From: an uncultured Verrucomicrobia subdivision 3 bacterium
GTDB lineage: Bacteria > Verrucomicrobiota > Verrucomicrobiia > Limisphaerales > UBA11358
NCBI GenBank assembly: GCA_903895255.1
Contig: CAITTG010000010.1
Location: 1 to 64,000, forward strand
Length of the DNA stretch: 64,000 nucleotides
Direction: 5' to 3'
The position numbers were made by a program, and so were the translations under genes. The notes under the pieces were generated by a model. The model did no database searches. It worked only from the letters and a program-made list of their open reading frames with translations, and was not told where the DNA came from. The stretch's first letter is position 1. Every line of letters begins with the position of its first letter. This document shows positions 7,506 through 29,418 of the stretch, piece by piece.

Positions 7506-9329
7506 TTAACTGGCACCGGTCACGATGGGCAGGGTGAAATAAATGGTCGCCCCCGGCCCCGCATTGTTCTCCGCCCAGATGCGCCCATCATGAGCGGTCA
7601 CTATCCTCTGGCAGATGGACAGGCCCAGGCCCAGGCCCTCGGGCTTCGAACTGTGGAACGGTTCGAACAAATGGCGCAACCTTTCGGGGCTGATGCCCGT
7701 GCCGCCATCCCGCACCGCCACCTGGACCAGACCAGGCTCCCGGCGCGTGGTCCGCAGGCTGGCTTCCCGCCGTTCATCCGGGGCATCTTTCATGGCGTCA
7801 AAGGCGTTGAGCACCAGGTTCAGGACCACTTGTTGCAACTGCACACTATCACCGTTGATGCGGATGGGGGACGGGTCCAGATCCAGGGTCAGGCGGATCT
7901 TTCGCTGGGTGGAGTCACTGTGTAATAACCGGACGATTTCCGCGATCACCCGGTTGATTTCCAGCGGCTGGCGATTGGGTTCCTCGCGGCGCACCAGATT
8001 GCGCATTTGGCGGATGATCTGGCCCGCGCGCTTGGTGTCTTGCGCGATGTCGTCCAGCGCCCCGCGCACCTCGCTCAGGTCCGGCGGTGTGGCGGCCAGA
8101 AAGCGGGTGGCGGCCTGCGCGTTGTTTAAGATGGCGCTCAATGGCTGGTTTAATTCATGGGCCAGCGAACCGGCGAGGGCGCCCAGATTTGAGACCCGGG
8201 CGAAATGGGTCAACTCCGCGCGCTGGCGGATGGTCGCGGCTTCCGCCAGCCGGAGTTCGGTGACATCCATGCTGACCCCGCGCAAAATCGGTGACTGAGT
8301 TTGCGGGTTGCTTTCCCAGCGGCCGCGCGAGGAGATCCAGCGCACCTGGTCGGGCGGCAGTTGCAACCGGTATTCCGCCTGATAGTCGCCCGTGCCCGCG
8401 ACCGCAGCCTGGACGGCGGAGCAAAGCCGGGACCGGTCCTCAGGATGGACTTTTTGCAGGAAGCGTGCAAAGTCCAGCGGCTCGGACGGGCCAAAGCCAA
8501 AAATCACCCGCCATTCCGGGGAGGCGCGAATGGTGTTGCTTTTTAGGTCGCGGGTCCAGAGGCCAATTCGCGCCGCGCTGCTGGCCAGCACCATCTGTTT
8601 TTGGCTTTCCTGCAAGTCCGCGGCCAATTGACCGGACCGCAGCACGTTCAGGCTCATTTCGAAACTAATGGCGGTGATCACCAGCATGAAAAAGCAACTT
8701 GCAATAACCGGCCAATGAAGCACACCCGTCACAACCAGCAGGCTTTGCAGCATGCCCGCCAGCAGGCAGATCGCGACACTGCCACCCACCGTGAGAGCCA
8801 GCCGCCGCTCCCCGCGCCGCCAGACCGTTATGGCCGCATCCACCACGAGGCCAACCAACAACAGCAGGCTTAACTGGCCGGCCAGCATCCAGGGATTGGG
8901 CACACCCACGGGAACCGCGACCGATTCACCCAGGAACATCACGTGCCGCAGACCGGTAATCTCCCGGTAATTGAGATTGACGGGTTGGAGAAAGTCAACC
9001 ACCAGGGCCAGACTACGGAGGGCGACCACTGAACCGAGCAACCACGAGCGTCCAGCCCCGAGATAAACCTTTACAAACCCGGCCAGACTTAGAATCAGCA
9101 GCCAGACCGGAAGGTGCACCCAGCGAACCGCCACGCCGTACTCGGCGGCGCTGGTGGACCGCATCATCCACAGTTCGATTGCTGCAAAAACCGCGGTGGC
9201 TGCCGAGGCGAGTCCGAAAAGCAGGCTGGCCCAGGCCCGGCGTTGCAGTCCCCAGACCAGCAAATGAATCACCCCCATGGTCAGGCAGGCGGATATGATC
9301 ATCGACCAGAGGATGGTGACCCAGTTCAT
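7506..9329 (-). CDS. Membrane-bound PAS sensor histidine kinase, FixL-like
   Basis: 607 residues. About seven hydrophobic segments occupy residues 5-225, followed by a PAS domain (about 250-360, ending GVSMDVTELR), a HisKA H-box SLAHELNQPLSAI with phospho-acceptor His391, and an HATPase domain with VLNLVLNAFDAM (N box) and GLGLGLSICQRIV (G2 box). The H-box type is that of FixL/DctB-like kinases, which pair with FixJ-type regulators. The nearest such regulators are at 12773 and 13637, separated by a tRNA and a GH35 gene. It is therefore a candidate partner, but the pairing is inference. No ligand-binding periplasmic domain is evident. Confidence 0.9.
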   Translation of the reverse strand: MNWVTILWSMIISACLTMGVIHLLVWGLQRRAWASLLFGLASAATAVFAAIELWMMRSTSAAEYGVAVRWVHLPVWLLILSLAGFVKVYLGAGRSWLLGSVVALRSLALVVDFLQPVNLNYREITGLRHVMFLGESVAVPVGVPNPWMLAGQLSLLLLVGLVVDAAITVWRRGERRLALTVGGSVAICLLAGMLQSLLVVTGVLHWPVIASCFFMLVITAISFEMSLNVLRSGQLAADLQESQKQMVLASSAARIGLWTRDLKSNTIRASPEWRVIFGFGPSEPLDFARFLQKVHPEDRSRLCSAVQAAVAGTGDYQAEYRLQLPPDQVRWISSRGRWESNPQTQSPILRGVSMDVTELRLAEAATIRQRAELTHFARVSNLGALAGSLAHELNQPLSAILNNAQAATRFLAATPPDLSEVRGALDDIAQDTKRAGQIIRQMRNLVRREEPNRQPLEINRVIAEIVRLLHSDSTQRKIRLTLDLDPSPIRINGDSVQLQQVVLNLVLNAFDAMKDAPDERREASLRTTRREPGLVQVAVRDGGTGISPERLRHLFEPFHSSKPEGLGLGLSICQRIVTAHDGRIWAENNAGPGATIYFTLPIVTGAS

Positions 9330-12604: not shown

Positions 12605-12645
12605 GGGACCCTGGACATCCGCTGTCCAGGGTCCCATTATTTTTT
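12605..12645 (+). terminator. Rho-independent terminator-like hairpin at the end of element copy 1
   Basis: Arms GGGACCCTGGACA (12605-12617) and TGTCCAGGGTCCC (12623-12635) pair over 13 bp around loop TCCGC. ATTATTTTTT follows. It has the form of a strong terminator on the plus strand. No protein gene on the plus strand ends here, so it would terminate either a small RNA or read-through. The hairpin core recurs at 40914-40938. Confidence 0.7.
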
Positions 12646-12772: not shown

Positions 12773-13495
12773 ATGCCTGCTGCCACATTTGCCGGTACGG
12801 TTTTTATCGTGGATGATGAAACATCTGTGCGCAAATCATTGGTGCGTCTGCTGGTCTCGGCGGGTTACGTCGTGGAGGCCTTTGCCTCGGCGGAGGACTT
12901 TCTGGGCCAGCCCCGGTCAGCGCACCACACTGGCTGTGTGTTGCTGGATGTGAGCCTGCCGGGGTTAAGCGGCCTGGATTTGCAGCAGGTGCTGCAAGCC
13001 CTGGCACCCCCCCTGCCGGTGATCTTTCTGACCGGGCATGGGGATGTGCCTTCGAGTGTGCGGGCCATGAAGGGGGGCGCGGTGGATTATCTGACCAAAC
13101 CCGTGTGTGCCGAGGCCTTGCTGCCGGCCATCGCCCTGGCCATGGACCGCTCCCGCGCGGCCCGGGAGCGGCATGCCGAGAGGCTGGAACTTCAACGCCA
13201 TTTGGACCAGCTTACCGACCGGGAACGCGAGGTGATGGAATTTGTGGTGCGCGGCTGGATGAACAAGCAGGTGGCGGCGGAACTGGGCACGGTGGAGAAA
13301 ACCATCAAGGTGCACCGCGCGCGGCTCATTGAGAAAATGGGTGTCTCTTCCCTGGCGGAGCTCGTGCTGGTCGCGGAAAAGCTGGGCATGTTTTCCCCGG
13401 AGTCGGGCACGCCCCGCCCGCGAAGTCCGGGGTCCGGCAACCAGCTTCCCCGGCAACAGCCCGCATTTTCCGGCCGGTGGCAAAACCCGGCCTGA
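12773..13495 (+). CDS. FixJ/NarL-type response regulator
   Basis: 240 residues. The receiver domain (10-125) has FIVDDETSV, phospho-acceptor Asp59 in LLDVSLPGLSG, FLTGHGDV and DYLTKPV. The output domain is a LuxR-type helix-turn-helix with LTDREREVMEFVVRGWMNKQ, KTIKVHRARLIEKMG. This is the FixJ layout: a phosphorylated dimer binds short inverted repeats. The gene heads the envelope cluster in which the TTGGAC-N4-GTCCAA sites lie, making it the most likely reader of those sites. The C-terminal 25 residues are Pro/Gly-rich and unlikely to be structured. Confidence 0.93.
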   Translation: MPAATFAGTVFIVDDETSVRKSLVRLLVSAGYVVEAFASAEDFLGQPRSAHHTGCVLLDVSLPGLSGLDLQQVLQALAPPLPVIFLTGHGDVPSSVRAMKGGAVDYLTKPVCAEALLPAIALAMDRSRAARERHAERLELQRHLDQLTDREREVMEFVVRGWMNKQVAAELGTVEKTIKVHRARLIEKMGVSSLAELVLVAEKLGMFSPESGTPRPRSPGSGNQLPRQQPAFSGRWQNPA

Positions 13496-13539
13496 TCACA
13501 CCGGGCCCGGGAAATCACCGGTCTGGCCCAAGATTAATG

Positions 13540-13555
13540 TTGGACCAAGGTCCAA
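13540..13555. promoter_or_regulatory. Inverted repeat TTGGACCAAGGTCCAA (site 1)
   Basis: Perfect 6-nt arms with a 4-nt spacer, lying between the FixJ-type regulator and the single-domain regulator. Its centre is 90 nt before the GTG at 13637. It is one of four such sites in the 13.5-23.4 kb cluster. Confidence 0.7.
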
Positions 13556-13636
13556 TGGTCGTCCGCCCCCGGCTTGGGCTAAGCTCACCCAGCAGCATCA
13601 CCACGCCACCCATGGCGCCGGGGCTGGCTTCAGTTC

Positions 13637-14071
13637 GTGACCAATAAAAAAGCACTCATTGCGATTGTGGACGACGACGAGTCGGTGTGTCGGGCCATGG
13701 AGCGGTTCGTGCGCTCCCTGGGCCTGGCCGCCGACACCTATGTCAGCAGCGAACATTTTCTGGAGCAGTTGGAATCCACCCCGGCCTGCCGGCCGGATTG
13801 CGTGATTCTGGATGTGCAGATGGCCGGGCTGGACGGCGTGGAGGCGCAACGGCGGCTGCGGCGGTCGCATCCCCGGATGCCCGTGATCTTCATCACCGCG
13901 CATGATGACCGCGCCGCGCGGGACCTGGCCGTGGACGGTGGCGCGGTCGCCGTGCTGCGCAAGCCGTGCAATGATGCCCTGATCATCCGCAGCCTGCAAA
14001 CCGCCCTGGGTCTCCGGCCGGCGGCGGATTTATTGGACCAAAGTCCAATTGTGCCGCGCCCGGCCGATTGA
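13637..14071 (+). CDS. Single-domain response regulator (receiver only)
   Basis: 144 residues, GTG start. It consists of a receiver domain only: IAIVDDDESVCRAMERFV, Asp59 in VILDVQMAGLDG, VIFITAHDD and AVLRKPC. There is no DNA-binding domain after residue 125; the tail ends soon after a regulatory repeat embedded in its last codons (14032-14049). Such stand-alone receivers usually act as phosphate sinks or relay partners, or bind another protein. It is preceded by site 1, so it may be a target of the FixJ-type regulator as well as its modulator. Confidence 0.88.
   Translation: MTNKKALIAIVDDDESVCRAMERFVRSLGLAADTYVSSEHFLEQLESTPACRPDCVILDVQMAGLDGVEAQRRLRRSHPRMPVIFITAHDDRAARDLAVDGGAVAVLRKPCNDALIIRSLQTALGLRPAADLLDQSPIVPRPAD
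14032..14049. promoter_or_regulatory. Inverted repeat ATTGGACCAAAGTCCAAT (site 2)
   Basis: Perfect 7-nt arms with spacer CAAA. It lies inside the last codons of the single-domain regulator and about 98 nt before the lipoprotein gene at 14139. A TATCCTAAATTC stretch (from 14125) near the lipoprotein start could serve as the -10 region. A lone half-site, ATTGGAC, recurs at 14547, 38 nt before the next gene. Confidence 0.75.
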
Positions 14072-14138
14072 GATAATTTACCGGTCATTTGGACGCGCAC
14101 CCATTTAACCATCGCCGCCGATCGGATATCCTAAATTC

Positions 14139-14546
14139 ATGAACTCAATCCTCCGCGTGCTCACGCTCTTGCTGGCAGCGGCCGGCCTGCTGGCCGTCAC
14201 CGGCTGCAAAACCGTGGCTATTTCCTCCACCCAATATATCGGCGGACCGATGTACGCCCCCTCGGACCCGAATACGATTGTGATTTTAAACACCGAACCC
14301 ACGCGGCCGAATGTGCGGCTGGGCGAGGTGACAGCCGAGCCCTCCAGCTCCAAGGTCTCGGCGCAGGAAATCATGGCCAAAATCCGGAAAGCGGCCGCGC
14401 AAATGGGCGCTGATGCCGTGGTCATTGTGTCGGACCGCTATCAAATCACCGGGGCAGTGGTCACGGGCGGGTGGATGACGCGCAGCATACAACCCACGAC
14501 CTCCCGGGTGATCGTGGGCGTGGCCATCAAGTACCTCAACCCCTGA
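14139..14546 (+). CDS. Small lipoprotein, function unknown
   Basis: 135 residues with a lipoprotein signal peptide; lipobox LAVTGC with the lipidated Cys near residue 23. The mature part contains VRLGEVTAEPSSSKVSAQEI and AAAQMGADAVVIVSDRY, a pattern of small alpha/beta lipoproteins whose role I do not know. It is the first envelope gene after site 2. Sec and Lgt/Lsp processing to the periplasmic face of a membrane is inferred. Confidence 0.8.
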   Translation: MNSILRVLTLLLAAAGLLAVTGCKTVAISSTQYIGGPMYAPSDPNTIVILNTEPTRPNVRLGEVTAEPSSSKVSAQEIMAKIRKAAAQMGADAVVIVSDRYQITGAVVTGGWMTRSIQPTTSRVIVGVAIKYLNP

Positions 14547-14584
14547 ATTGGACCACACGCCCTTTTTCAATTGCTCATCCTGAT

Positions 14585-15343
14585 ATGAAACACACGATTA
14601 GCCTGGGTGTCATGCTGGCCGCCCTCGGCCTGTTGACCGGCTGCCAGACCGACACCACCACCTACGACCCCGCCCCCACCCCGCCGCCGCCGCTGGTGGG
14701 CAGCGCCCCGGCCAGCAACCCGACCCCAGCGGGGCCCGCCACGGGCCTGGCCGCCCGCATTATTGAAGCCAGCCAGGCCAATGCTGCGCAATTGAAGCGC
14801 TATTCCTGGTCCAGCCGCGTGGAGTTGCTGCAAAATGGCGTGGTGCAGGATATTCGCATTGAACTGGTGGCGCTCGATCCCTACCAGCAATGGCAGCGCA
14901 CCTTGCTCAATGACCAGGCCGCGCCGCTGCCGGATGGCTTTATCCGCCGGCGCATTGCGGAAAACCAGCGCGCCCAGGTGGAGACCTACCTGGTCGGCCT
15001 GCGCAGTCTGCTGGACCAATACACGATGCTCACGCCCGGCCAGGTGGTTAGTTTCGTCGGCCAGTCCCGGATTTCCGCGCCGGATTCCAATGGCCTGCTG
15101 AAACTGACGGGGTCGGATATTGTGGTGCCCGCCGATACCTACAGCGTGTGGCTGCTGCCCGCCAGCCGGCAGACCCGCCGGATTCAGGTCACCACCTTTT
15201 ACCAGCTCAGCCAGGTGCAAATAACCGCCACGTTTGCCACGCTGCCCAGCGGCTTGACCCATGTGCAATACGCGGAAGTCGATGTGCCCGCGCAAGGTTT
15301 GCGTTTGCAAATGCACAACTTTGATTACAACCTGAACAACTGA
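14585..15343 (+). CDS. Lipoprotein, DUF-type, function unknown
   Basis: 252 residues. Lipobox LLTGC is followed by a Thr/Pro-rich linker (to about residue 55) and a folded domain starting LAARIIEASQANAAQLKRYSWSSR. That domain resembles periplasmic lipoproteins with an incomplete beta-barrel fold, with repeated short strands such as VELLQNGVVQDIRIELVALD. No catalytic motif is visible. It starts 38 nt after the previous gene with a half-site ATTGGAC in between. Confidence 0.8.
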   Translation: MKHTISLGVMLAALGLLTGCQTDTTTYDPAPTPPPPLVGSAPASNPTPAGPATGLAARIIEASQANAAQLKRYSWSSRVELLQNGVVQDIRIELVALDPYQQWQRTLLNDQAAPLPDGFIRRRIAENQRAQVETYLVGLRSLLDQYTMLTPGQVVSFVGQSRISAPDSNGLLKLTGSDIVVPADTYSVWLLPASRQTRRIQVTTFYQLSQVQITATFATLPSGLTHVQYAEVDVPAQGLRLQMHNFDYNLNN

Positions 15344-15409
15344 GCCGGGTGGGCCACCCAGGCCGGACCGGGGCGTTGGCGCCCGCCGGACCGCCGGGGG
15401 TTTGAATTT

Positions 15410-17788
15410 ATGCAAATCCAAAATACAAAGCGGTCCGCGTTCGCGGCCCGGATGCTGGTCTGGTGGCTGGCCATAATAACCCTTTCCCTGGCGCTCCGCC
15501 TGCCCGCGCAGGACGCGCCCGCCGGGCCGGTGGTTGATCCGGCCACCCTGTCGTGGCCGCGTTACTATGCTACCAATGGCTTTGAATTTGCGGTTTACCA
15601 GCCCCAGATCAATGCCTGGCCGGGCAACCAGCTCCAAGGCCGGTTCGTGGTGGCCGTCCGCGCGGCCGGCACCACCCAGGAAACCTACGGCGTGGTCTTT
15701 TTTCAGGCCCAAACCGCCATTGACAAAGTGAACCGCCTGGTGACCCTCGACAATTTTTCGATCACCCGGGTTTCCTTTCCGGGGCAGCCCGCGCAGGCGG
15801 ACCAATATCGCGGCATGCTGGCCTCGTTTCAGGGTCAGGCGGTTAAAATCATTCCGCTGGACCATCTGGAGGCGGTCTTTGCCGCCTCGGCGGACATCAC
15901 CCATGCCAAAGTGCAAACGGTGAACAATGACCCGCCGCAGTTGATCTTCGCCACCGTGCCCTCGCTGCTCATCCTGGTGGACGGCCCGCCGGTGTTGCAG
16001 CCCCTGAGCGGGAATTATCAGCGGGTCATCAACACCCGCGCGGTGCTGTTGTTCTGTGTGAACCCGGCCAACCCCGGCTTCTATCTTTACGCTGACAGCC
16101 AGTGGTATTCCGCGCCCGCCGTGACGGGTCCGTGGATCGTGGCAACAAACCTCGGGGTCAATGTGGATAATGCCCTGAGCGCCGCGCTCGCCACCCAGCA
16201 GGTGGACCCGATGTATCCCACAGATGAAAATGCGCCCACGGCCAACCAGGTGTTTGTCGCCACCACCCCCGCTGAGTTGATTGAGACCGCCGGCACGCCC
16301 AACCTGGTGCCGATTCCCGGCACGGACCTGTCCTACGTGCAAAACAGCAGCCGGGCCATTTTCAATTACTCGGACACCGGCAATTATTATGTGCTGGTCT
16401 CCGGACGCTGGTTCACCGCCGGCAGCCTGAGCGGGCCGTGGTCCTTCGTCCCGCCGGGCAGCCTGCCCGGTGATTTCGCCAAAATTCCGCCGGACCACGA
16501 GAAGTCCAACGTCCTGATGTCCGTGCCCGGCACGCCGCAGGCGCGCGAGGCGGTGATCGCCAACGCCATTCCCCAGACGGCCACAGTCCTGCGCAGCCAG
16601 GCCGCGCTGACGGTGAACTATTATGGCACGCCCAGTTTCACGCCCATCGCTGGCACGGCTCTGGCCTACGCTGCCAACACCCAAACCCCGGTGGTTCAGG
16701 TTTCCCCCAATAGTTACTACGCCTGCCAGGGCGGCGTGTGGTTCACCTCATCCGCGGCCACCGGTCCCTGGGTGGTGGCGGACAACGTGCCCGACGCGAT
16801 CTACACCATTCCGGCGAGCTGTCCGATTCATTACGCGACGTATGCCTATGTCTATGGCAGCACGCCCACCGCCGTGGAGGTTGGCTATACCCCGGGCTAC
16901 ATGGGCCCGGTGGTGGCGCCCGGCGGCGTGGTGGTTTATGGCACCGGCTATAATTACGCGCCGGTGGTGACGGGCGGCTCTTATGTGGCGTATCCGCCGA
17001 GTTATGGTTACGGGGCGTCCTTCGCCCTGGGTTCGGCGGTGGGTTATTCTTATGGTTATGCCGGCGGCTCGGTGACCACCTGCTGCTGCCAGCCCTATTG
17101 GGGCGCCTATGCCTGGGCGGCGGGATCGGGTTATAACTATGCCCATTGCAATGTGAATGGCTGCAACGCCTACACCCACTGGGGCACGGCGGTCAGCCGC
17201 ACCGGCAGCTACGGCTACAATGCCTACACCGGCACCCCCTATGCCAGCCGGAGCGCGGTGGCATTCAATCCCTACACCGGCATGCATGCCTCGGCGAACG
17301 GCACGGCCGCCTACAATCCGTATACGGGCAATGCCTCGGATTATCGCAGCGGGTCCTCGTACAACACCCGCACGGGCGGCAGCGCTTCGGGCAGCGCCTC
17401 GGCTTCCGCCTACTCCTACACGGGCAATTATGATGCCAGCAAGCAGGGGAGCTACAACAACGCCAACACCGGCGAGAGCGTCTCCGGCCAGAAATCCGTT
17501 TCCGGCAACTATTATAACGGCACTGCCACCAGCACGGGCTCCGGCTCCGCGTCTAATTCCAAAACCGGCAATTCCGCCGCCTGGAGCAATGGCAGCATGA
17601 CCTCCGACATGGACGGCAACACCTATAATTATAATAAGGGCGACACCACGCAAAACCAGGCCACCGCCCAAAGCGAGGAAGCGGCCCGGCAGGCCTCCGC
17701 GCAGGCCGCGGGCCAGCAACGCTATGAAAGCTATGCCAAGGGCGGCGGCGGCGGCTGGGGTGGCGGCTACCGTGGGGGACGCCGATAA
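15410..17788 (+). CDS. Giant secreted surface protein with YNPYTG repeats (paralogue 1)
   Basis: 792 residues. Signal peptide with hydrophobic stretch MLVWWLAIITLSLALRLPAQ. The conserved front part (about 40-490) contains WPRYYATNGFEFAVYQPQ and motifs shared with proteobacterial proteins annotated as carbohydrate-binding family V/XII: SYYACQGGVWFTS, IYTIPASCPIHYATY and VEVGYTPGYMGPVVAPGGV. A Cys-rich patch follows (TTCCCQPYW, HCNVNGCN), then a low-complexity tail with YNAYTG/FNPYTG/YNPYTG units and a final GGGGGWGGGYRGGRR. The next gene is a close paralogue 36 nt away. Function unknown; an extracellular, glycan- or surface-associated role is inferred. Confidence 0.85.
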   Translation: MQIQNTKRSAFAARMLVWWLAIITLSLALRLPAQDAPAGPVVDPATLSWPRYYATNGFEFAVYQPQINAWPGNQLQGRFVVAVRAAGTTQETYGVVFFQAQTAIDKVNRLVTLDNFSITRVSFPGQPAQADQYRGMLASFQGQAVKIIPLDHLEAVFAASADITHAKVQTVNNDPPQLIFATVPSLLILVDGPPVLQPLSGNYQRVINTRAVLLFCVNPANPGFYLYADSQWYSAPAVTGPWIVATNLGVNVDNALSAALATQQVDPMYPTDENAPTANQVFVATTPAELIETAGTPNLVPIPGTDLSYVQNSSRAIFNYSDTGNYYVLVSGRWFTAGSLSGPWSFVPPGSLPGDFAKIPPDHEKSNVLMSVPGTPQAREAVIANAIPQTATVLRSQAALTVNYYGTPSFTPIAGTALAYAANTQTPVVQVSPNSYYACQGGVWFTSSAATGPWVVADNVPDAIYTIPASCPIHYATYAYVYGSTPTAVEVGYTPGYMGPVVAPGGVVVYGTGYNYAPVVTGGSYVAYPPSYGYGASFALGSAVGYSYGYAGGSVTTCCCQPYWGAYAWAAGSGYNYAHCNVNGCNAYTHWGTAVSRTGSYGYNAYTGTPYASRSAVAFNPYTGMHASANGTAAYNPYTGNASDYRSGSSYNTRTGGSASGSASASAYSYTGNYDASKQGSYNNANTGESVSGQKSVSGNYYNGTATSTGSGSASNSKTGNSAAWSNGSMTSDMDGNTYNYNKGDTTQNQATAQSEEAARQASAQAAGQQRYESYAKGGGGGWGGGYRGGRR

Positions 17789-17824
17789 ACCAACGCCTGA
17801 CTGGCACCCTAACGCCTGCCCACC

Positions 17825-20386
17825 ATGCAAACCCAAGCGTTCAATCATTCCTCGTCAGGCGGTCATTGCCGCGCGGCGGTCCGGCTGGTGCTTGGGATGT
17901 TAATGCTCATGCTGGCGGGAGCCGTCCGGCTGCCCGCGCAAACTCTGCAGGCAGGCCAGCCAGTGTCCCTGGCGGCCCTGGGCTGGCCGCGCTTCTATGC
18001 CACCAACGGCTACGATTTTGCCATCTACCAGCCCTCCATCAGCGCCTGGCCGGGCAACCAGCTCAACGGCCGGTTTGTCGTGGCCGTGCGGCCCACCGGC
18101 ACCACCAACGAATCCTACGGCGTCGTTTTCTTTCAAGCGCGCACGGACATTGACAAGGTCAACCGCCTCGTGACGTTCGAGGATTTTCAGATCAATCGCC
18201 TGAACTTTCCCACCCAGCCCGGCATGCAGGACCAGTACCGGGCCATGCTGCTGTCCTTCCAGCAGCAGACGGTGCGGGTGATACCCCTGGACCATCTGGA
18301 GGCGGTGTTCGCCGCCTCGGCGGACATCACCCAGGCCAAGGTGCAGGCCGTCAAAAACGATCCCCCCGCGATTTTCTACTCCACCCAACCCTCGCTGCTG
18401 GTGCTCGTGGACGGCCCGCCTGTCTTGCAGAACCTCACTGGCAATTACCAGCGGGTCGTCAACACCCGCGCCATTCTGCTGCTGGACAACAACCCCATTT
18501 GGGGCTGTTACTTTCTCTATGCGGACGGCCAGTGGTACACCGCGCCCGCCGTGGCCGGTCCCTGGAGTGTCGTGGTAAATTTCCCTGCCAACATCAACAA
18601 CGCCCTTTCCGCCGCGCTGAACACCGGCCAGGTGGACCCGATGTACCCCAAACATCCGGGCGCGCCGCCGGTGACCCAGGTTTACGTGTCCACCGTGCCC
18701 GCCGAGTTGCTCGAAGTCACCGGGGCGCCCAACCTGGTTTCCATTCCGAACACCGACTTGCTGTATGTGGAAAATACGAGCAATGCCATATTTTATTATT
18801 TGGATGATGGCAATTATTACGTCCTGATTTCCGGCCGCTGGTTCAAGGCGGGGAATTTAAGCGGCCCGTGGGCTTTCGTGCCGCCGGGCAGCCTGCCGGG
18901 GGATTTCCTGAAAATTCCGCCGGACAGTGACAAGTCGAATGTGATGCTTTCCGTGCCCGGCAGCCCGCAGGCGCGCGAGGCGGTGATCGCCAATTCCATT
19001 CCCCAGACGGCGGCGATCGACCGTTCGGCGGCCAAGCTCACCGCCGTATATCTGGGCGGCGCCCCGAGCTTCATGCCCATTGCCGGCACCGGATTATATT
19101 ACGCGGCCAATTCAGACACCCCGGTGATCATGGTGGCCCCCAACAGCTACTACGCCTGCCAGGGCGGCCTGTGGTTTACGGCGGCAACCGCCACGGGACC
19201 CTGGGTGGTGGCGACCTTTGTCCCCTCCGTTATCTACACCATTCCCGCGACCTGTCCGATCCATTACGTGACGTACGCCTATGTTTACAGCTACACGCCC
19301 ACGCTGGTTTATGTGGGTTACACCCCGGGATACATGGGCACGGTGGTGGCCCCGGGCGGGGTGGTGGTATATGGCACCGGTTATTACTATCCGCCGGTGG
19401 TGGTGGGCTCGGTTTATGTGAGCTACCCGCCCACCTATGGTTATGGCGCGTCGTTTGCCATGGGGGCGGCCGTCGGGTTTGCCTTTGGTTTTTGCGCGGG
19501 CTCCAGCACCACCTGCGCGTGCCAGCCCCACTGGGGTTGTTATAGTTACAGTTATTCCACGAGTTACAGTTACACGCACTGCAACGTCAACGCCTGCAAT
19601 TGTTATTCATCCTATGGCACGGCGGTGCACACCACTGGCAGTTATGGGTATAACGCCTACACCGGCAACGAATGGGCCAGCAAAAGCTCCACCGCCTACA
19701 ACCCCTACACCGGCACCCATGCCTCCGGGACCAGCAGCGCCACTTACAACCCTTATTCCGGCAATGCCTCGGCCCAGCGGAGCGGGTCGGCTTACAACCC
19801 CTACAGCGGGGCCAGCGCCTCGGGCAGCAGTTCCGCCTCCGCCAACCGTTACAACGGCAATTATTCCGGGAGCAAGCAGGGCTCGGCCTACAATCCCACC
19901 ACCGGCTCCAGCATGAGCGGTTCGGCCAGCACGTCGGGCAACGCCTACAATGGCACCCAAACCACCACCAAAGCGGGCAGCTACAATAATGCCAACACCG
20001 GGGAGAGCGCCTCCGGTCAGCGGACCACCACCGACAACAACGGCACCTACTCCAGCACCGGTTCCGGCTCGGCGTCCAATTCCAAGACCGGCGCCTCCTC
20101 CTCGTGGAGCAACGGGAGCATGACCTCGGACAAGGATGGCAACACCTATTCCTATAATCAGGGGGACACCTCGCAAAACAAAGCCACCGCGCAAAGCGAA
20201 AGCTCCGACTCGCACCCCGCTTCCTCCTACAATTCGGATGCCGACCGGGATTACTCGGCGCAATCCGAGGGACAAGACCGTGCCAACAGCTTTGGCAGTG
20301 GCGGCGGCGGGGGGTGGGGTGGCTCCCATGGTGGTTGGGGCGGCGGCGGTGGCAGCGGCGGTTGGGGTGGTGGTGGCCGCCGTTAA
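17825..20386 (+). CDS. Giant secreted surface protein with YNPYTG repeats (paralogue 2)
   Basis: 853 residues, closely similar to the preceding gene over its whole length. It has a signal peptide, WPRFYATNGYDFAIYQPS, SYYACQGGLWFTA, YTPGYMGTVVAPGGV, the Cys-rich patch (TTCACQPHWG, HCNVNACNC), repeated YNPYTG/YNPYSG units and a C-terminal Gly-Trp-rich tail ending GGGRR. The repeat region is longer than in paralogue 1 (more YNPYxG copies), suggesting repeat expansion after a tandem duplication. It is probably the last gene of the transcription unit starting at 14139. Confidence 0.85.
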   Translation: MQTQAFNHSSSGGHCRAAVRLVLGMLMLMLAGAVRLPAQTLQAGQPVSLAALGWPRFYATNGYDFAIYQPSISAWPGNQLNGRFVVAVRPTGTTNESYGVVFFQARTDIDKVNRLVTFEDFQINRLNFPTQPGMQDQYRAMLLSFQQQTVRVIPLDHLEAVFAASADITQAKVQAVKNDPPAIFYSTQPSLLVLVDGPPVLQNLTGNYQRVVNTRAILLLDNNPIWGCYFLYADGQWYTAPAVAGPWSVVVNFPANINNALSAALNTGQVDPMYPKHPGAPPVTQVYVSTVPAELLEVTGAPNLVSIPNTDLLYVENTSNAIFYYLDDGNYYVLISGRWFKAGNLSGPWAFVPPGSLPGDFLKIPPDSDKSNVMLSVPGSPQAREAVIANSIPQTAAIDRSAAKLTAVYLGGAPSFMPIAGTGLYYAANSDTPVIMVAPNSYYACQGGLWFTAATATGPWVVATFVPSVIYTIPATCPIHYVTYAYVYSYTPTLVYVGYTPGYMGTVVAPGGVVVYGTGYYYPPVVVGSVYVSYPPTYGYGASFAMGAAVGFAFGFCAGSSTTCACQPHWGCYSYSYSTSYSYTHCNVNACNCYSSYGTAVHTTGSYGYNAYTGNEWASKSSTAYNPYTGTHASGTSSATYNPYSGNASAQRSGSAYNPYSGASASGSSSASANRYNGNYSGSKQGSAYNPTTGSSMSGSASTSGNAYNGTQTTTKAGSYNNANTGESASGQRTTTDNNGTYSSTGSGSASNSKTGASSSWSNGSMTSDKDGNTYSYNQGDTSQNKATAQSESSDSHPASSYNSDADRDYSAQSEGQDRANSFGSGGGGGWGGSHGGWGGGGGSGGWGGGGRR

Positions 20387-20465
20387 CCCGCGATGATTCG
20401 CCGCAAAAATTCTGGGCAAACCGCCATTGGACCTTTAAATTTTTGATGAACTGAGATTGCATACT

Positions 20466-21065
20466 ATGAAAAACTCCATCCGCCAGCTCGCCTGGTTCCT
20501 GCTCCTCCCGGCCGCCTGCCTCCTGGCCGGCTGCTGGACGAATCCCGCCAATCCGCCCGCCGCCACCGCCGACCCGTCTTTCGCCGGCGGCATCGTGTTC
20601 AACGACGAATTCGACACCTCCGCCAAAGTGACCTCCGTGAACCAGGACACCCGCCAGATCATCCTGACGTTCGAAGACGGCACCAGCACCACCAACATCG
20701 CGGGACCGGAAGTCATTAACTTTGATAAAATTCAGTCCGGCGACCACGTCAAGGCCCACATCGGTGTGGAATACGGCGTCTTCCTCGTGAAGAATGGTTT
20801 GCCGCCCGCCGCCGCCAGCTCCGTCCTGTTTGCCGGCGCGGCCAAGGGCGAAAATCCCGCCGGTCTGATGGTGGCCACGCACGACAGCAGCGCCCTGGTG
20901 CTGGCCGCGGACCGCAGCTACCGGCTGCTCACGCTGAAATTTGCCGACGGCCATGTCAAAACCTTCAAGGTGCCGCTGCCCTACACGCTGGAACGGGTCT
21001 CGCCCGGGGATAATGTGATCCTGCGCACCACCGACACCGTGGCGCTGCGGCTGGTGCCGCAATAA
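20466..21065 (+). CDS. Lipoprotein with paired small beta-repeats (family member 1)
   Basis: 199 residues with lipobox LLAGC. The mature part carries two related units. Unit 1 has AKVTSVNQDTRQIILTFEDGT followed by IQSGDHVKAHI. Unit 2 has YRLLTLKFADGHVKTFKVP followed by VSPGDNVIL. Each resembles a small barrel in which a GD-V turn follows a DG turn. The next two genes share this pattern, so they are tandem duplicates. ATG at 20466 is chosen because it begins the signal peptide MKNSIRQL. A half-site ATTGGAC lies at 20426. Confidence 0.8.
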   Translation: MKNSIRQLAWFLLLPAACLLAGCWTNPANPPAATADPSFAGGIVFNDEFDTSAKVTSVNQDTRQIILTFEDGTSTTNIAGPEVINFDKIQSGDHVKAHIGVEYGVFLVKNGLPPAAASSVLFAGAAKGENPAGLMVATHDSSALVLAADRSYRLLTLKFADGHVKTFKVPLPYTLERVSPGDNVILRTTDTVALRLVPQ

Positions 21066-21200
21066 GCGAATGAAGCCGGCAGAATGTGGCATGAAGAAAT
21101 CGCGCCCCAATTAACCTGGGCCACCCTGCCTTTGGGATTGCCAAACCGCTCGTTTCCGCGCATTTTTAAAAAGTTATTTCCGGGACAGGTAAAGGGCCCG

Positions 21201-21216
21201 TTGGACCAAAGTCCAA
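21201..21216. promoter_or_regulatory. Inverted repeat TTGGACCAAAGTCCAA (site 3)
   Basis: The core of site 2 (TTGGACCAAAGTCCAA) recurs here base for base; only the outermost pair differs. It sits in the 260-nt gap before the lipoprotein gene at 21326, about 117 nt from its start. A CTAAATT stretch at 21279 matches the one at 14131 after site 2. Confidence 0.75.
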
Positions 21217-21325
21217 TTGCCCCATCCGGAACCGCCAGCGACCATGGGGCCGCTGAACAACCGCGCATTCAGAACATACTAAATTTCATCTCATGAGCAC
21301 CAACGCCTTTTTGACACCTTCATTT

Positions 21326-21880
21326 ATGAAATCCGCCCGCCGCGTCCGGCTGCCGCTGTTGCTGGCCGTGTCCGCCTCCCTGGCCGTGACCGGTTGCTGG
21401 ACCCCGCCCAACGCCCATGTGCAGCCCAAGGGCAAACCCGGCCTGATTCAAGGCGGCATTCCCGTGGAGGTCATTCAGGACAAGGTGAAGATTATTGCTT
21501 TGGACCCCGAGAAGCGAATCATCACCCTGGCCCATGCGGATGGCACCACCAAATCCTATTACCTGAATGCCTCGGTTAAAAACGCCTCCGCCCTGAAAGT
21601 GGGCGACACGGTCAAGGCTTACGTGGCTGCCCGGGTTTCGGTATACATCACCCAAAACGGCGGGATTCCCGATGCCTCCGGCGCCGGCTTCCACGCCATC
21701 CGCAGCGACGCCAAGATCCAGCAGGTGGATCCCAGCTACCGCCTGGTGGTGGTGGAATTTGCCGGCGGCCAGGTGCTCACCATCAAGGCCGGCCTGGACG
21801 TGCAACTTGAGAAAATGGCCCCGGGCGACGACATTACTCTAATTTCCGAGGAAATTTCCAAGATTAAACTGGAGGACTGA
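21326..21880 (+). CDS. Lipoprotein with paired small beta-repeats (family member 2)
   Basis: 184 residues from ATG 21326 (MKSARRVRLPLLLAVSASLAVTGC, lipobox AVTGC). Same two-unit layout as its neighbours: DPEKRIITLAHADGTTKSYYL with LKVGDTVKAYV, then DPSYRLVVVEFAGGQVLTIKA with MAPGDDITLI. An in-frame ATG at 21293 would add 11 residues before the signal peptide and is less likely. It is preceded by site 3 and followed 26 nt later by member 3. Confidence 0.8.
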   Translation: MKSARRVRLPLLLAVSASLAVTGCWTPPNAHVQPKGKPGLIQGGIPVEVIQDKVKIIALDPEKRIITLAHADGTTKSYYLNASVKNASALKVGDTVKAYVAARVSVYITQNGGIPDASGAGFHAIRSDAKIQQVDPSYRLVVVEFAGGQVLTIKAGLDVQLEKMAPGDDITLISEEISKIKLED

Positions 21881-21906
21881 GAACGCCGGAGAAGGAAGAC
21901 TTTAGA

Positions 21907-22530
21907 ATGAAGAACGAAGAAGTGAAGGCATGGACGGTTTCGCAATTAGCCGCTCTGGCCGCCCTGGTGGTGGCCTTGGTGGGCCTGACGGCCTGCTCCA
22001 CCACTCCCGAGTATCCGGACAATACCAGTCCCAATTCCGGCCAGGGTGGCGATGTTTCCACGGCCGCCACCACCCGCACCGCCACCGTGGTCTCCGTGGA
22101 CCGTGTGAAACGGCTTGTGGTGCTTAAGCGGGAGGACGGCACGGATGTCACCTACAAAGCCCTGCCCAATGCCTTTGCCTTTGACGAAGTGAAGGCGGGC
22201 GACACCGTGAAGGTCTCCGTCTCCGAGGAAATGGCCTTCTACATTGGCAAGGGCAACATGCCCCCCAATTTAGGCCTGAATACCGCCAAACTGCACGCCC
22301 ACCTGCCCGGCAACACCCAGGCTTTCGATGCCGAGGTGGGCACGCTCGTTTACTCCGGCAAGATCATCAATGTGGATGACTGGAACAATGCCGTGACCAT
22401 CAAGGCCAAGGACGGCACCACCAAAACCATCCAGGTGGGCGAGGCCGTCAATCTGGCCGATGTTTCCGTGGGCGACCACGTATACTTGCAGGCTACCGAG
22501 TCCGCCCTGCTATTGCTGGAGAAACCCTGA
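21907..22530 (+). CDS. Lipoprotein with paired small beta-repeats (family member 3)
   Basis: 207 residues with a longer N-region before the signal and lipobox GLTAC. Unit 1 reads DRVKRLVVLKREDGTDVTYKA with VKAGDTVKVSV. Unit 2 reads DWNNAVTIKAKDGTTKTIQVG with VSVGDHVYL. The alternation DG turn / K-x-GD-V is the same as in the two genes before it. Function unknown; a periplasmic binding or stress role is only a guess. Confidence 0.8.
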   Translation: MKNEEVKAWTVSQLAALAALVVALVGLTACSTTPEYPDNTSPNSGQGGDVSTAATTRTATVVSVDRVKRLVVLKREDGTDVTYKALPNAFAFDEVKAGDTVKVSVSEEMAFYIGKGNMPPNLGLNTAKLHAHLPGNTQAFDAEVGTLVYSGKIINVDDWNNAVTIKAKDGTTKTIQVGEAVNLADVSVGDHVYLQATESALLLLEKP

Positions 22531-22580
22531 GCTCCCAACCATTCCCCGCCCGCCACCAACCCTTTAAAACCCTCCCTTTT

Positions 22581-23336
22581 ATGAAATCAATCCTGAGTCA
22601 ACCAACCACGGTGGGCCGCCGGGCCTGGAATTGTTTGTCGACCCTGCTGGCGGCCAGCCTGCTCCTCGGCGGTCTCACCGCCTGCGACACCACCCACCAG
22701 GTCAAAGAAACCCGGAAAGATTTCTCGGGTTTCCTCGGCAATTATGCCGACTTGCAGCCGGGCGGTTCGGACGAAGCCAATTTCCTCTACATCGACCACT
22801 CCGTAAACTGGGCCAAATATACCAAGATTTACATCAAGAACGTGGACCTGTGGAAGTCCGACGAGCTGGACTCGCCGCTGGGTGAACTGCCCCCGGAGAA
22901 GCAACAAATGCTGGTCAACTTTTTCCATACCGCGCTGGCGGACGCCCTGTCTGATCATTATCAGATCGTGGACCAGCCCGGGCCGGACGTGCTGGTGGTG
23001 CATGTGGCCATCACCGAGGCGCGCAAGTGCCGGCCGGTGCTGAACCTCGTCTCCAGTGTCGTGCCCATGGCCCTGGTGGTGAGCTATGGCAAGCAATTGA
23101 TCACCGGCACCGGCACCGGCGTGGGCGAGGTGCGCATTGAGGCGGAATTCACGGATGGCGCCACCGGCCAGCGCGTCGCGGCGGGCGTGGACGCCCGGGC
23201 GGGCACCAAGGCCTTGCGCACGAAATTCGACGGCACCTGGGGCGATGCCAAGCTCGCCTTTGACTGGTGGTCCACCCGGCTCAATGCCCGCCTGCAACTC
23301 TTGCAGAAGGGCGACTTTAGCACGCAGGAATTATAA
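22581..23336 (+). CDS. DUF3313-family lipoprotein
   Basis: 251 residues, lipobox GLTAC. The mature protein has KDFSGFLGNYADLQPG at the start, then YTKIYIKNVDLW, DALSDHYQIVDQPGPDVLVVHVAITEAR and GEVRIEAEFTDGATGQRVAAGVDAR, the arrangement of the DUF3313 family of outer-membrane-type lipoproteins. No biochemical role is established for the family as far as I know. It closes the transcription unit that begins after site 3. Confidence 0.85.
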   Translation: MKSILSQPTTVGRRAWNCLSTLLAASLLLGGLTACDTTHQVKETRKDFSGFLGNYADLQPGGSDEANFLYIDHSVNWAKYTKIYIKNVDLWKSDELDSPLGELPPEKQQMLVNFFHTALADALSDHYQIVDQPGPDVLVVHVAITEARKCRPVLNLVSSVVPMALVVSYGKQLITGTGTGVGEVRIEAEFTDGATGQRVAAGVDARAGTKALRTKFDGTWGDAKLAFDWWSTRLNARLQLLQKGDFSTQEL

Positions 23337-23398
23337 GGCCAAGCGGGCTGGCGGCTTGGTCGGGTTCGGCCCCGGCCTGGTGACGGCGGGCGAATCGT

Positions 23399-23416
23399 AT
23401 TGGACCTAAGTCTAAT
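23399..23416. promoter_or_regulatory. Inverted repeat ATTGGACCTAAGTCTAAT (site 4)
   Basis: 7-nt arms with one mismatch (GTCTAAT against ATTGGAC) and spacer CTAA. It is about 172 nt before the sulfatase start, further than the other sites. It is the weakest of the four copies but keeps the same arm length and spacing. Confidence 0.6.
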
Positions 23417-23579
23417 AGCCGCCCGGTCGGTTTTTTGGGCAGAATAGGTGACTTGGCGGAACTCCCTGGGGTGTCGCCAGCACTTAAAGGGTGGCTGCCC
23501 GCCGACGGCTGCGGGGTGGTGGGGAGAAAATTAATTTAGTCGGCACCCGTAATAAAACTGAGACAACCGAGAAATCCAA

Positions 23580-26108
23580 ATGAAACTGAATCCGATGCTC
23601 ATCCACAGTCCGGCCGCGCTGGCGGGTCTGCTGGTGCTGTTCCAGGCGGCCACCGCGCCCGCCCAACAAATCAACGGCACCCCCGGCTCGACCACGGCGA
23701 CCCAGGTCATTGACGGGAAACAAATCCCGCCGCCCCCGCTGCCCTTCGGCGGCGTGATTAATGAGGACGCGAAAAATTCCAAGCCCTACTGGCCGCCCCC
23801 CGTGGTGCCGCCCAAGAGCGCGCCCAACGTGCTGCTGATCATGACGGATGACCAGGGGTACGGCGTCTCCGGCACCTTCGGCGGGGTCATCCCGACCCCG
23901 GCCATGGACCGCGTGGCCGCCGCCGGCCTCAAGTACACCCAATTTCATTCCACCGCGCTGTGCTCGCCCACGCGGGCGGCCCTCATCACGGGCCGCAACC
24001 ATCACTCGGTGGGCTTCGGCGTGATCGGCGAAATGTCCACCGGATTCCCGGGCTACGACTCGGTCATCGGGCCGGACTGCGCCACCGTGGGCGAAATCCT
24101 GAAGGAAAACGGGTATTCCACCGCCTGGTTTGGCAAGAACCACAACACGCCCACCTACCAGTACAGTGATGCCGGGCCGTTTACCCAGTGGCCGGTCGGC
24201 ATGGGTTTTGAATACTTCTACGGCTTCATGGGGGGTGAAAGCGACCAGTGGACGCCGTACCTCTTCCGCAACACCACGCCGGTGTTTCCCTGGGTCGGCA
24301 AAAAAGGTTACAACCTGACCACCGACCTGGCCGACGATGCCATCGAGCACATGCACGCGCTCAACGCCTCGGCGCCGGACAAACCCTATTTCATTTATTA
24401 CGTGCCCGGCGGCACGCACTCGCCCCACCAGCCCACGCGCGAATGGATTGACAAGATTCACGCGCTGCATCTGTTCGACGGCGGCTACGAAAAATTGCGC
24501 GAGCAGATTTTTGCCAATCAAAAACGCCTGGGCGTGATTCCCCCGGAAACGCAGCTCACGCCGTGGCCGGACGGCCAGGCCGCCTATGGCGGCGCGACCC
24601 TGCCGCGCTGGGACTCCCTCTCGGAAGTGCGCAAGAAACTATACATTCATGAGGCCGAGGTCTTCGCCGCGTATGTCGCCTACACCGATCATGAAATCGG
24701 CCGGGTGATCCAGGAGGTGCAGGACGAGGGCAAGCTCGACAACACCCTGATCATTTACATCAGCGGCGACAACGGCACCAGCGCCGAGGGCACCCTCGAG
24801 GGCACCTACAACCAAATGACGGCCTACAACGGCATTCTGGAAGTGCCGGAGGCGCTGCAATTGTTGCACTTTGAGGACTGGGGTTCGGACAAGACCTATC
24901 CCCACATGGCCGTGCAATGGTCCTGGGCCTTTGACACGCCCTTTAAATGGACCAAGCAGGTGGCGTCCCACTTCGGCGGCACCCGCCAGGGCATGGCCAT
25001 TTCCTGGCCCGGTCACATCACCGATGTCGGCGGCCTCCGGAGCCAGTTCCATCACATGATCGACATCGTGCCCACCATTTTGGAAGCGGCGGGAATTCAA
25101 GCCCCGGACGAGGTGAACGGCATCAAGCAACGGCCGATCGAGGGCATCAGCATGGCCTACACCTTTGACAAAACCAATGCCACCGCGCCCTCGAAGCGCG
25201 AAACGCAGTACTTCGAAATGTTCGGCAACCGGGCGATTTACCACGACGGCTGGGTTGCCGCCACCACCCCGCCCGCCGCCCCCTGGCTGCTGGGTACTTC
25301 CAAACTCCCCAACATCAGCGACTACCATTGGGAACTCTACAACATCGCCGAGGATTATTCTGAAAATAACGATCTGTCGGCCCAAAACCCCGACAAGCTC
25401 AAGGAACTCCAGGCTTTGTTCCTGACGGAGGCGGCCAAATATAACGTGCTGCCGCTGGACAACTCCATCCTGCCCCGGCTGCTAACCCCGCGGCCCAGCG
25501 CCACCGCCGGCAAAACGGTGTTCACCTACACCGGCGTGAATGCCAACATTCCCGTGGGCAACGCGCCCAATATCATGGACCGGGACTATACCATCGCCGC
25601 CGACGTCACCATTCCCGAGGGTGGCGCGGAAGGGATGATTGCCACCCTGGGCGGCCGCTTTGGTGGTTACGGCCTGTTCCTCCAACATGGCAAGCCGGTT
25701 TTCGTGTACAACCTCCTCGACCTGGAACGCTTCCGCTGGGAGGGTGGCGTGGGCGGGGTGGTGGGCGATGACCTCTTTGGCCGGGCGCTCAGCCCGGGCA
25801 AGCATACCGTGGCGTTTGACTTCAAATATGATGGACCGGGCCTCGGCAAGGGCGGCACCGGCCTGTTATCGGTGGATGGCACGGTTATTTGCACCAAAAC
25901 CATCAAGCACACGATTCCCATCCTCATGTCCATCGATGAGACTTTCGACGTCGGTCTGGACACCCGCACCGGGGTGGATAACAGCTATGAGTTGCCCTTC
26001 AAATTCACCGGCACGATTGACAAGCTGACCATTACGCTGGGCCCGTCGCAAATCACGGCCGATGATCAAAAAGCCGTGGACGAAGGCCACAAGAGCGCGG
26101 ACAACTAG
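23580..26108 (+). CDS. Secreted arylsulfatase-type sulfatase
   Basis: 842 residues, signal-like hydrophobic N-terminus. The sulfatase domain starts APNVLLIMTDDQGYG (metal ligands Asp90/Asp91) and contains the formylglycine motif CSPTRAALITGR with Cys128, which a formylglycine-generating enzyme must modify. Later metal-site motifs are present (SGDNGTSAEG, GTRQGMAISWPGHI). After about residue 640 a beta-rich C-terminal domain (FGGYGLFLQHGKPVFVYNL) resembles a concanavalin-like fold. It should hydrolyse sulfate esters outside the cytoplasm. The close match to arylsulfatases (RNHHSVGFG) rather than to typical carbohydrate sulfatases leaves the substrate open. A strong terminator follows. Confidence 0.92.
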   Translation: MKLNPMLIHSPAALAGLLVLFQAATAPAQQINGTPGSTTATQVIDGKQIPPPPLPFGGVINEDAKNSKPYWPPPVVPPKSAPNVLLIMTDDQGYGVSGTFGGVIPTPAMDRVAAAGLKYTQFHSTALCSPTRAALITGRNHHSVGFGVIGEMSTGFPGYDSVIGPDCATVGEILKENGYSTAWFGKNHNTPTYQYSDAGPFTQWPVGMGFEYFYGFMGGESDQWTPYLFRNTTPVFPWVGKKGYNLTTDLADDAIEHMHALNASAPDKPYFIYYVPGGTHSPHQPTREWIDKIHALHLFDGGYEKLREQIFANQKRLGVIPPETQLTPWPDGQAAYGGATLPRWDSLSEVRKKLYIHEAEVFAAYVAYTDHEIGRVIQEVQDEGKLDNTLIIYISGDNGTSAEGTLEGTYNQMTAYNGILEVPEALQLLHFEDWGSDKTYPHMAVQWSWAFDTPFKWTKQVASHFGGTRQGMAISWPGHITDVGGLRSQFHHMIDIVPTILEAAGIQAPDEVNGIKQRPIEGISMAYTFDKTNATAPSKRETQYFEMFGNRAIYHDGWVAATTPPAAPWLLGTSKLPNISDYHWELYNIAEDYSENNDLSAQNPDKLKELQALFLTEAAKYNVLPLDNSILPRLLTPRPSATAGKTVFTYTGVNANIPVGNAPNIMDRDYTIAADVTIPEGGAEGMIATLGGRFGGYGLFLQHGKPVFVYNLLDLERFRWEGGVGGVVGDDLFGRALSPGKHTVAFDFKYDGPGLGKGGTGLLSVDGTVICTKTIKHTIPILMSIDETFDVGLDTRTGVDNSYELPFKFTGTIDKLTITLGPSQITADDQKAVDEGHKSADN

Positions 26109-26125: not shown

Positions 26126-26161
26126 GCGGCCGGCGATTCTATGAATCGCCGGCCGCTTTTT
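26126..26161 (+). terminator. Rho-independent terminator after the sulfatase gene
   Basis: Arms GCGGCCGGCGATT (26126-26138) and AATCGCCGGCCGC (26144-26156) pair perfectly over 13 bp, with a 5-nt loop and TTTTTAT after. An ATG in the loop (26141) is in frame with the next gene, but the true start is more likely ATG 26162, just past the hairpin. Confidence 0.92.
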
Positions 26162-28867: not shown

Positions 28868-28984
28868 GACTTGTGAAATTTCCTGGTCTGCAATCTCCCC
28901 ACATTTACTCCTAATCTACTCTGGTTCGTGATGATAATGTTTTGGCCTTTGATGACTGTCAACTCCGGGGCAGTCTGATTTGGA

Positions 28985-29035
28985 ATTTGAATATTGGAGT
29001 TTGGAGGTTGGTTCTTGGAGCTTTTCCCCATCCGC
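28985..29035. repeat. Dispersed TTGG.TCTTGGAGCTTT repeat, left of higBA
   Basis: A short-period degenerate repeat of TTTGGA/TTGGAG units ending TTGGTTCTTGGAGCTTTTCC. The end portion recurs at 29850-29893 in the same orientation on the far side of higBA, and inverted at 55503-55566. It forms one of several simple-sequence-derived dispersed families in this window. Confidence 0.65.
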
Positions 29036-29071
29036 GCCATCCGCTGTTGAAAAATCCCGCCCAAGACCCGC

Positions 29072-29101
29072 TTGACATCCCCTGCGACTTATGCATACAA
29101 T
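29072..29101 (+). promoter_or_regulatory. Sigma-70-like promoter of higBA
   Basis: TTGACA (29072-29077), an 18-nt spacer and TACAAT (29096-29101). The expected transcription start, about 29108, is two bases from the GTG start of higB, so the message would be nearly leaderless. CATA-CAA-TATG across the -10 box is a small palindrome that could be the HigA operator. Confidence 0.75.
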
Positions 29102-29109
29102 ATGTGTGC

Positions 29110-29418
29110 GTGCGGATTGTGAAGGAAACGTTCTTGCGGGAGGCGGCGGGGAGGCACCCCAAGGCCGCGAAATGGCTGGCCGCTTGGGTGGTGACCGTGC
29201 GCGGCGCGGACTGGCGCGGGTTGGCCGATGTGCGACGCAGCTACCCCAGCGCGGACATGCTGCGGGTGGGCAGCGGCAAGCCGGCGCTGGTGTTCAACGT
29301 TTGCGGCAACACGTACCGGCTCATAGTGGCCATGCATTTTGACCGTCAGACCGCCTACAAACTGCGTTTCCTGACCCATGCGGAATACAGCACGGACCGT
29401 TGGAAAAATGAATTATGA
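29110..29418 (+). CDS. higB: HigB-type mRNA interferase toxin
   Basis: 102 residues from GTG 29110. It matches the HigB toxin family: RIVKETFLREAAGRHPKA, W (Trp in RGADWRGLADV), LVFNVCGNTYRLIVAMHF and the terminal RFLTHAEYSTDRW. HigB cleaves mRNA on ribosomes. Upstream in-frame starts would lie inside the promoter and repeat, and the family begins at this MRI/VRI position. It overlaps higA by 4 nt. The toxin-first order is typical of hig modules. Confidence 0.92.
   Translation: MRIVKETFLREAAGRHPKAAKWLAAWVVTVRGADWRGLADVRRSYPSADMLRVGSGKPALVFNVCGNTYRLIVAMHFDRQTAYKLRFLTHAEYSTDRWKNEL

Follow-up and report, generated by a model that had tools for sequence, protein, structure and literature searches.

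A FixJ-type regulator, its probable palindromic operator and a proposed envelope regulon in an uncultured Verrucomicrobia bacterium

The first 64,000 nucleotides of contig CAITTG010000010.1 of an uncultured Verrucomicrobia subdivision 3 bacterium (GCA_903895255.1; genome of 5.06 Mb), here called the window, encode a FixJ-type response regulator (12773-13495, + strand) ahead of a cluster of lipoprotein, repeat-protein and sulfatase genes, in which a sequence-only reading had noticed a recurring palindrome. In all likelihood this regulator, called 12773 after its first position, is an activator that acts through 20-bp boxes on a stand-alone receiver, as feedback, and on nine other targets, its phosphate most likely coming from the kinase encoded at 7506-9329. 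The phosphorylated 12773 dimer would bind the box TATTGGMCYAARGTCCAATA, its centre some 44 bp upstream of the transcription start, and would help RNA polymerase onto a promoter that has its -10 element 21-23 nt past the box. From the first box of the cluster the stand-alone receiver would be expressed and would probably exert negative feedback, either by restraining the same kinase or by draining its phosphate, while the other nine boxes would drive envelope lipoproteins, the sulfatase, a DUF1254 protein, outer-membrane and small exported proteins, a glutaminase and an ion channel. What we describe is a FixJ-type system that is new and whose operator code is unusually easy to read; it does not amount to a new kind of system.

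The palindrome, TTGGAC-N4-GTCCAA, is real and above chance. A tolerant scan finds it perfect at 13540, 14033 and 21201 and with one mismatch at 23400 (TTGGACCTAAGTCTAA), with no further copy at 0 or 1 mismatch within the 64 kb; the other matches in the window carry 2-3 mismatches each, and the overall total is not above that of shuffles. The four copies of the sequence-only reading, and its statement that the 64 kb hold no other, are thus confirmed except for the mismatch in the fourth, and its positions 14032 and 23399 were off by one because the preceding A was included. Pattern searches of the whole genome give seven perfect copies against none of the reversed control, and allowing one mismatch, or the extended form ATTGGNCCNNNGTCCAAT, adds two strong sites, both ATTGGCCCAAGGTCCAAT. 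The working set, defined by the extended site with A or C permitted at one arm position, has ten members: the four in the window and C9:51951, C22:22739, C45:28576, C49:3041, C61:2515 and C101:31616. All ten stand before genes, 14033 overlapping the final codons of the receiver gene. Two one-mismatch matches that are apparently intragenic, C77:25696 and C94:15552, were dropped as chance.

Among 49 genomes of the genus, the window's is the only one with more than one perfect site. The others hold 0-1, which rules out a genus-wide motif and would make the expanded regulon peculiar to the window's species. In 320 genomes of the order, the form TTGGACCNNNGTCCAA occurs at two sites in just one genome besides the window's. 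The regulon idea would have been undone by a motif equally common elsewhere; sites are scarce in both genus and order, so commonness gives no ground to reject it. The lone half-sites ATTGGAC that had been proposed as elements occur at chance level (10 observed vs 8.6 expected) and are ruled out by these counts; ATTGGACC half-sites number 6 against 2.8 expected, and 3 of the 6 belong to full sites.

The regulator has PF00072 and PF00196 above cut-off, that is, the N-terminal receiver and C-terminal GerE/LuxR helix-turn-helix (HTH) of the NarL/FixJ class, with recognition helix TVEKTIKVHRAR. Its closest solved chains, StyR (1yio) and FixJ (5xso), both align over the full length, and when the HTH alone is compared EL222 ranks next after StyR. 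Against the FixJ equivalog NCBIfam NF006900 it scores 184 bits, below the curated cut-off of 255, and is therefore FixJ-like, not FixJ itself.

The box recurs beside homologous regulators in other genomes. Only 7 of the 320 order genomes contain the refined 20-bp box TATTGGMCYAARGTCCAATA at no more than two mismatches, and in five of these (G000, G026, G030, G125 and G068) it lies less than 200 nt behind a 12773 homologue, in the same orientation, and is followed each time by a stand-alone receiver gene. The same regulator-box-receiver order, with the receiver unit duplicated, is present in L110 of the metagenome-assembled genome (MAG) AV60, from another collection. The sites of G035 and G148 in the order scan have no regulator nearby and may be chance. 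When the 220 nt around and behind the gene end were scored for the core ACYAARGT with palindromic arms at 66 homologue loci of the order, 36 reached the box threshold, against 1.19 in dinucleotide shuffles (standard deviation 1.22, maximum 6). Outside the order, nine stretches were taken from a scan of the phylum (388 genomes) by box alone, and three of them contain FixJ homologues, all with EKT[IV]K helices: G537 has a kinase, FixJ, a receiver and then two boxes (helix TTEKTVKVHRGR), G323 a box about 0.8 kb behind the homologue (helix TAEKTIKVHRAR) and G536 a box about 90 nt before it (helix ISEKTIKIHRAR). No FixJ homologue was seen in the remaining stretches of the nine, which may be chance. 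Among L111-L155, the FixJ homologues from Proteobacteria (identity about 36-49%) have no such box behind the regulator gene.

The arms of the box also change together with the recognition helix of the regulator beside it. For 47 loci whose boxes were picked by core alone, a Mantel test of arm distances against helix distances gave r=0.41, and r=0.27 when receiver-domain divergence was controlled for, with 0 of 5000 permutations as high in either case. The helix TVEKT[IV]KVHRAR goes with TTGGMC...GTCCAA, SERTIKAHRA with TGCACCAAAGGACA, EITVKIQRG with ACACCAAGGTAT or ATACCAAGGTAT, and RTVKLHRTN with TGCCCCAAAGGGCA. A measured anchor is available in EL222, whose operator consensus is RGNCYWWRGNCY (PMC10521638); all four window boxes fit it exactly, and those of C49 and C9 with one mismatch each. 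Where a box was scored, all seven regulators with K at the x of E/Q-x-T have one that fits this consensus (at most one mismatch) vs 3 of 33 others (Fisher P = 6e-6, a value that overstates independence because the association is partly shared descent). The proposal that the palindrome is the operator of 12773, made originally from its place at the head of the cluster, is therefore well supported by its adjacency to homologous regulators, the co-variation of arms and helix, and the EL222 consensus.

It is decidedly improbable that the palindrome serves another transcription factor, with the FixJ gene merely a neighbour or a target. The genome does offer dozens of response-regulator matches (53 to the 12773 query), and the region upstream of the window's regulator has no box, the box lying behind the gene. 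However, the arms track the adjacent FixJ helix beyond what receiver-domain relatedness accounts for, the box fits the consensus measured for a protein with the same helix motif, and searching with nothing but the box retrieves FixJ genes with EKT[IV]K helices from outside the order. In addition, the two closest 12773 paralogues in the genome have recognition helices of other classes, which argues against cross-talk; the one on C1 has its own version of the box, and the one on C31 has none by the automatic rule. The balance leans, with room for doubt, towards a wider pattern, in which many FixJ-type systems of this Verrucomicrobiota order would have an operator of their own immediately 3' of the regulator gene, in many cases to drive a stand-alone receiver. 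Within one genome, paralogous systems would stay separate through paired changes in helix and arms, so that operator and regulon would be predictable from the recognition helix, uncultured lineages included.

The arrangement of the boxes relative to the genes behind them has the look of activation. Read toward the downstream gene, and picked regardless of centre, the box centre is AA in 30 of 32 cases, TA in 2 and TT in none. In 25 of 49 boxes a TANNNT hexamer follows the 20-bp box at a distance of 21-23 nt, against 1.7 (maximum 7) in shuffles, and three-base windows away from this peak never hold more than 3 matches. Transcription starts about 7 nt behind the -10 element, which would place the box centre near -44, a position typical of an activator touching RNA polymerase. 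Across the family, the predicted -10s give the fixed -10 distance, and a site within the -41 to -45 range, expected of a Class II activator. In the window, the offset enrichment points to putative -10s on the + strand at 13580-13585 (TAAGCT, 22 nt behind box 1) and 14072-14079 (GATAATTT, behind box 2). CTAAATT, to which the sequence-only reading had assigned a spacing of helical turns, has no constant distance from the boxes and is rejected as a promoter element; the conserved element is the -10-like hexamer.

Two other explanations bear on this geometry. That 12773 represses the box genes is unlikely: placing EL222 sites over a promoter has yielded a repressed one (PMC10521638), StyR can act either as activator or as repressor (PMC2442086), and the case for activation here is one of geometry, but the oriented box centre, the fixed -10 offset and a box just upstream of the -35 position are all typical of activators, and StyR itself activates from about -40 (PMC2442086). 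Far less probable still is that the palindromes are RNA hairpins, weak terminators or repeats like the repetitive extragenic palindromes. The arms do pair and change together as those of an RNA stem would, and the reverse strand at 13540 scored as a weak terminator-like stem; yet the inferred -10 is downstream of the box, which would therefore not be transcribed from that promoter, the arms correlate with a protein helix, and only about ten copies exist, all before genes.

The likely cognate kinase of 12773 is the PAS sensor histidine kinase encoded at 7506-9329 on the - strand (HisKA, HATPase_c and PAS domains). It is the genome's best match to the G030 kinase that directly precedes FixJ, over both the sensor and the kinase half (47% and 43% identity), and the only kinase of its genome to match the sensor half of that protein. 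In relatives the sensor kinase gene stands directly before FixJ; in the window an opposite-strand GH35 gene occupies that position, and the kinase-regulator adjacency expected of a FixLJ-FixT arrangement is not seen, the likely kinase being 3.4 kb off and on the other strand. The other element of that arrangement, a stand-alone receiver directly behind the regulator's operator, is present in the window and in relatives, and a same-strand stand-alone receiver lies within 400 nt at 34 of the 66 homologue loci. The window's receiver (13637-14071, + strand) is a single-domain response regulator with Response_reg as its only Pfam match, and as the proposed feedback element it may restrain the kinase in the manner of FixT. 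In MAG AV60, one receiver copy (L110:2208-2663, QHOD01000069.1) is fused in frame to a FixJ HTH, either a recombinant regulator or an assembly artefact, and at 9208 the truncated start of a third receiver reads on into a repeat protein. In G125, a pyruvate-formate-lyase-like glycyl radical enzyme (L236:7141-9687) is encoded a few genes behind the FixJ-box-receiver unit.

The cluster in the window, all on the + strand, is preceded by a candidate terminator-like stem (12605-12635, consensus scan) in front of the regulator gene. The four predicted boxes, located by pattern scans, front the receiver, a lipoprotein, a second lipoprotein unit and the sulfatase. Box 1 (13538-13557, TGTTGGACCAAGGTCCAATG) holds the same place before the receiver in G026, G030, G125, G068 and MAG AV60. 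Box 2 (14031-14050, TATTGGACCAAAGTCCAATT) overlaps the end of the receiver gene and is followed by a lipoprotein (14139-14546) recognized by the lipobox in its translation, a further lipoprotein (14585-15343), and two large exported repeat proteins (15410-17788 and 17825-20386), paralogues 64% identical to each other; none of these four matches a Pfam or NCBIfam family. The repeat tails of the two large proteins are glycine/serine-rich. The next lipoprotein (20466-21065) has counterparts in the FixJ clusters of G026, G030 and G125. Behind box 3 (21199-21218, CGTTGGACCAAAGTCCAATT) come a lipoprotein of no family (21293-21880), whose start codon may be a downstream ATG near 21326, another related to 20466 (21907-22530; 31% identity, with counterparts in relatives), and a DUF3313 lipoprotein identified by Pfam (22581-23336). 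Box 4 (23398-23417, TATTGGACCTAAGTCTAATA, one mismatch), with CAGAAT at 23440-23445 as a weak -10 candidate, precedes the sulfatase (23580-26108; PF00884, with the active-site motif C-S-P-T-R in its sequence), and a strong terminator-like stem found by consensus scan (26126-26156) closes the cluster. A HigB-type toxin gene lies downstream of it at 28942-29418.

Outside the window, the C9 box fronts a glutaminase fused to STAS and cyclic-nucleotide-binding domains (L072:3009-4838), the C45 box a DUF1254/DUF1214 lipoprotein, the C49 box a tandem pair of small exported proteins, and the C61 box an outer-membrane-like protein; the C101 box fronts an ion channel divergent from a DUF3300 gene. The C22 box fronts a DUF3313 lipoprotein 62% identical to the one in the window, and the three DUF3313 genes of the genome are found behind box 3, immediately after the C22 box and some 1.4 kb away from the C61 box. 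Several of these targets are shared with relatives: proteins 50-56% identical to the C61 protein are encoded immediately after the receiver in G030 and G026, lipoproteins resembling 20466 and 21907 occur at the same two receiver loci, sulfatases are present in the G026, G030 and G068 clusters, and DUF1254 is found at the G068 locus. A second box in G026 (L240:1254-9659, contig 321) fronts an Omp85-family gene; close by are a homologue of the formylglycine-generating enzyme, DUF3300 and a sulfatase-maturase-type radical-SAM/SPASM protein, an arrangement suggestive of co-regulated sulfatase activation in that genome. The surface programme originally proposed, of six lipoproteins, two giant repeat proteins and a sulfatase under one two-component system, is largely supported in that the boxes front mostly envelope proteins and the sulfatase; it falls short in that 14585, 20466 and the two giant proteins have no full box directly before them in the window.

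Membership of those four genes would thus be by read-through in a cluster closed at 26126-26156, and this is one weak point of the proposed system among several. Box scores are below threshold at 30 of the 66 homologue loci, and 12773 itself forms a long branch that falls outside the supported clade uniting the other TTGG-box regulators. The FixJ homologue of G263 (L276:3642-4295), an exception to the helix-operator code, has the same helix TVEKTIKVHRAR and no TTGG box in 8 kb or in its genome. A strict TANNNT stands at the expected offset in only 4 of the 10 sites of the genome (13540, 14033, C45 and C22), there is no -10-like hexamer at the usual offset at 21201, C9, C49 and C101, and a plain consensus scan found no sigma-70-like promoters over the boxes.

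Regulons of Verrucomicrobiota in uncultured lineages are almost unknown. A literature search with the motif letters returned primer tables and unrelated papers only, and nothing relevant was found on FixJ in Verrucomicrobia or on Verrucomicrobia regulons with palindromic sites. Here a regulator, its operator, the promoter geometry and about ten target sites are readable from sequence and directly testable, and the family supplies dozens of natural regulator-operator pairs for working out the DNA-recognition code of FixJ-type proteins, with EL222 as the measured anchor. The regulon would also connect a group of unnamed envelope lipoproteins with a sulfatase and, in relatives, with the enzymes that likely activate it.

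Four known systems invite comparison. The DosR box has a GGAC-N4-GTCC core, as does the box described here. DosR/DevR of Mycobacterium (PDB 1zlk, 3c3w) likewise has a NarL/FixJ-family HTH, but its sequence similarity to 12773 is weaker, its G/C arms are longer, and it governs a dormancy regulon. StyS-StyR of Pseudomonas fluorescens is a two-component system whose regulator is the closest solved full-length relative (PDB 1yio) and activates from a palindromic site at about -40 (PMC2442086); the StyR helix is EVTVKVHRHN, its operator is different, and it controls styrene catabolism. EL222 of Erythrobacter litoralis (PMC10521638; PDB 8a5r, 3p7n) has the HTH helix EKTVKMHR, against EKTIKVHR here, and its operator consensus is matched exactly by the core GGACCAAGGTCC, to which the present system adds outer TT/AA arms; unlike 12773, with its HTH fused to a receiver, EL222 is a one-component LOV light sensor. 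FixL-FixJ-FixT of rhizobia and Caulobacter, in which FixT inhibits FixL autophosphorylation (PMC7078487), resembles the present system in pairing a FixJ-type regulator with a stand-alone receiver controlled by the same pathway, but the operator and sensor differ, and no fixK, oxygen or nitrogen-fixation genes were seen here.

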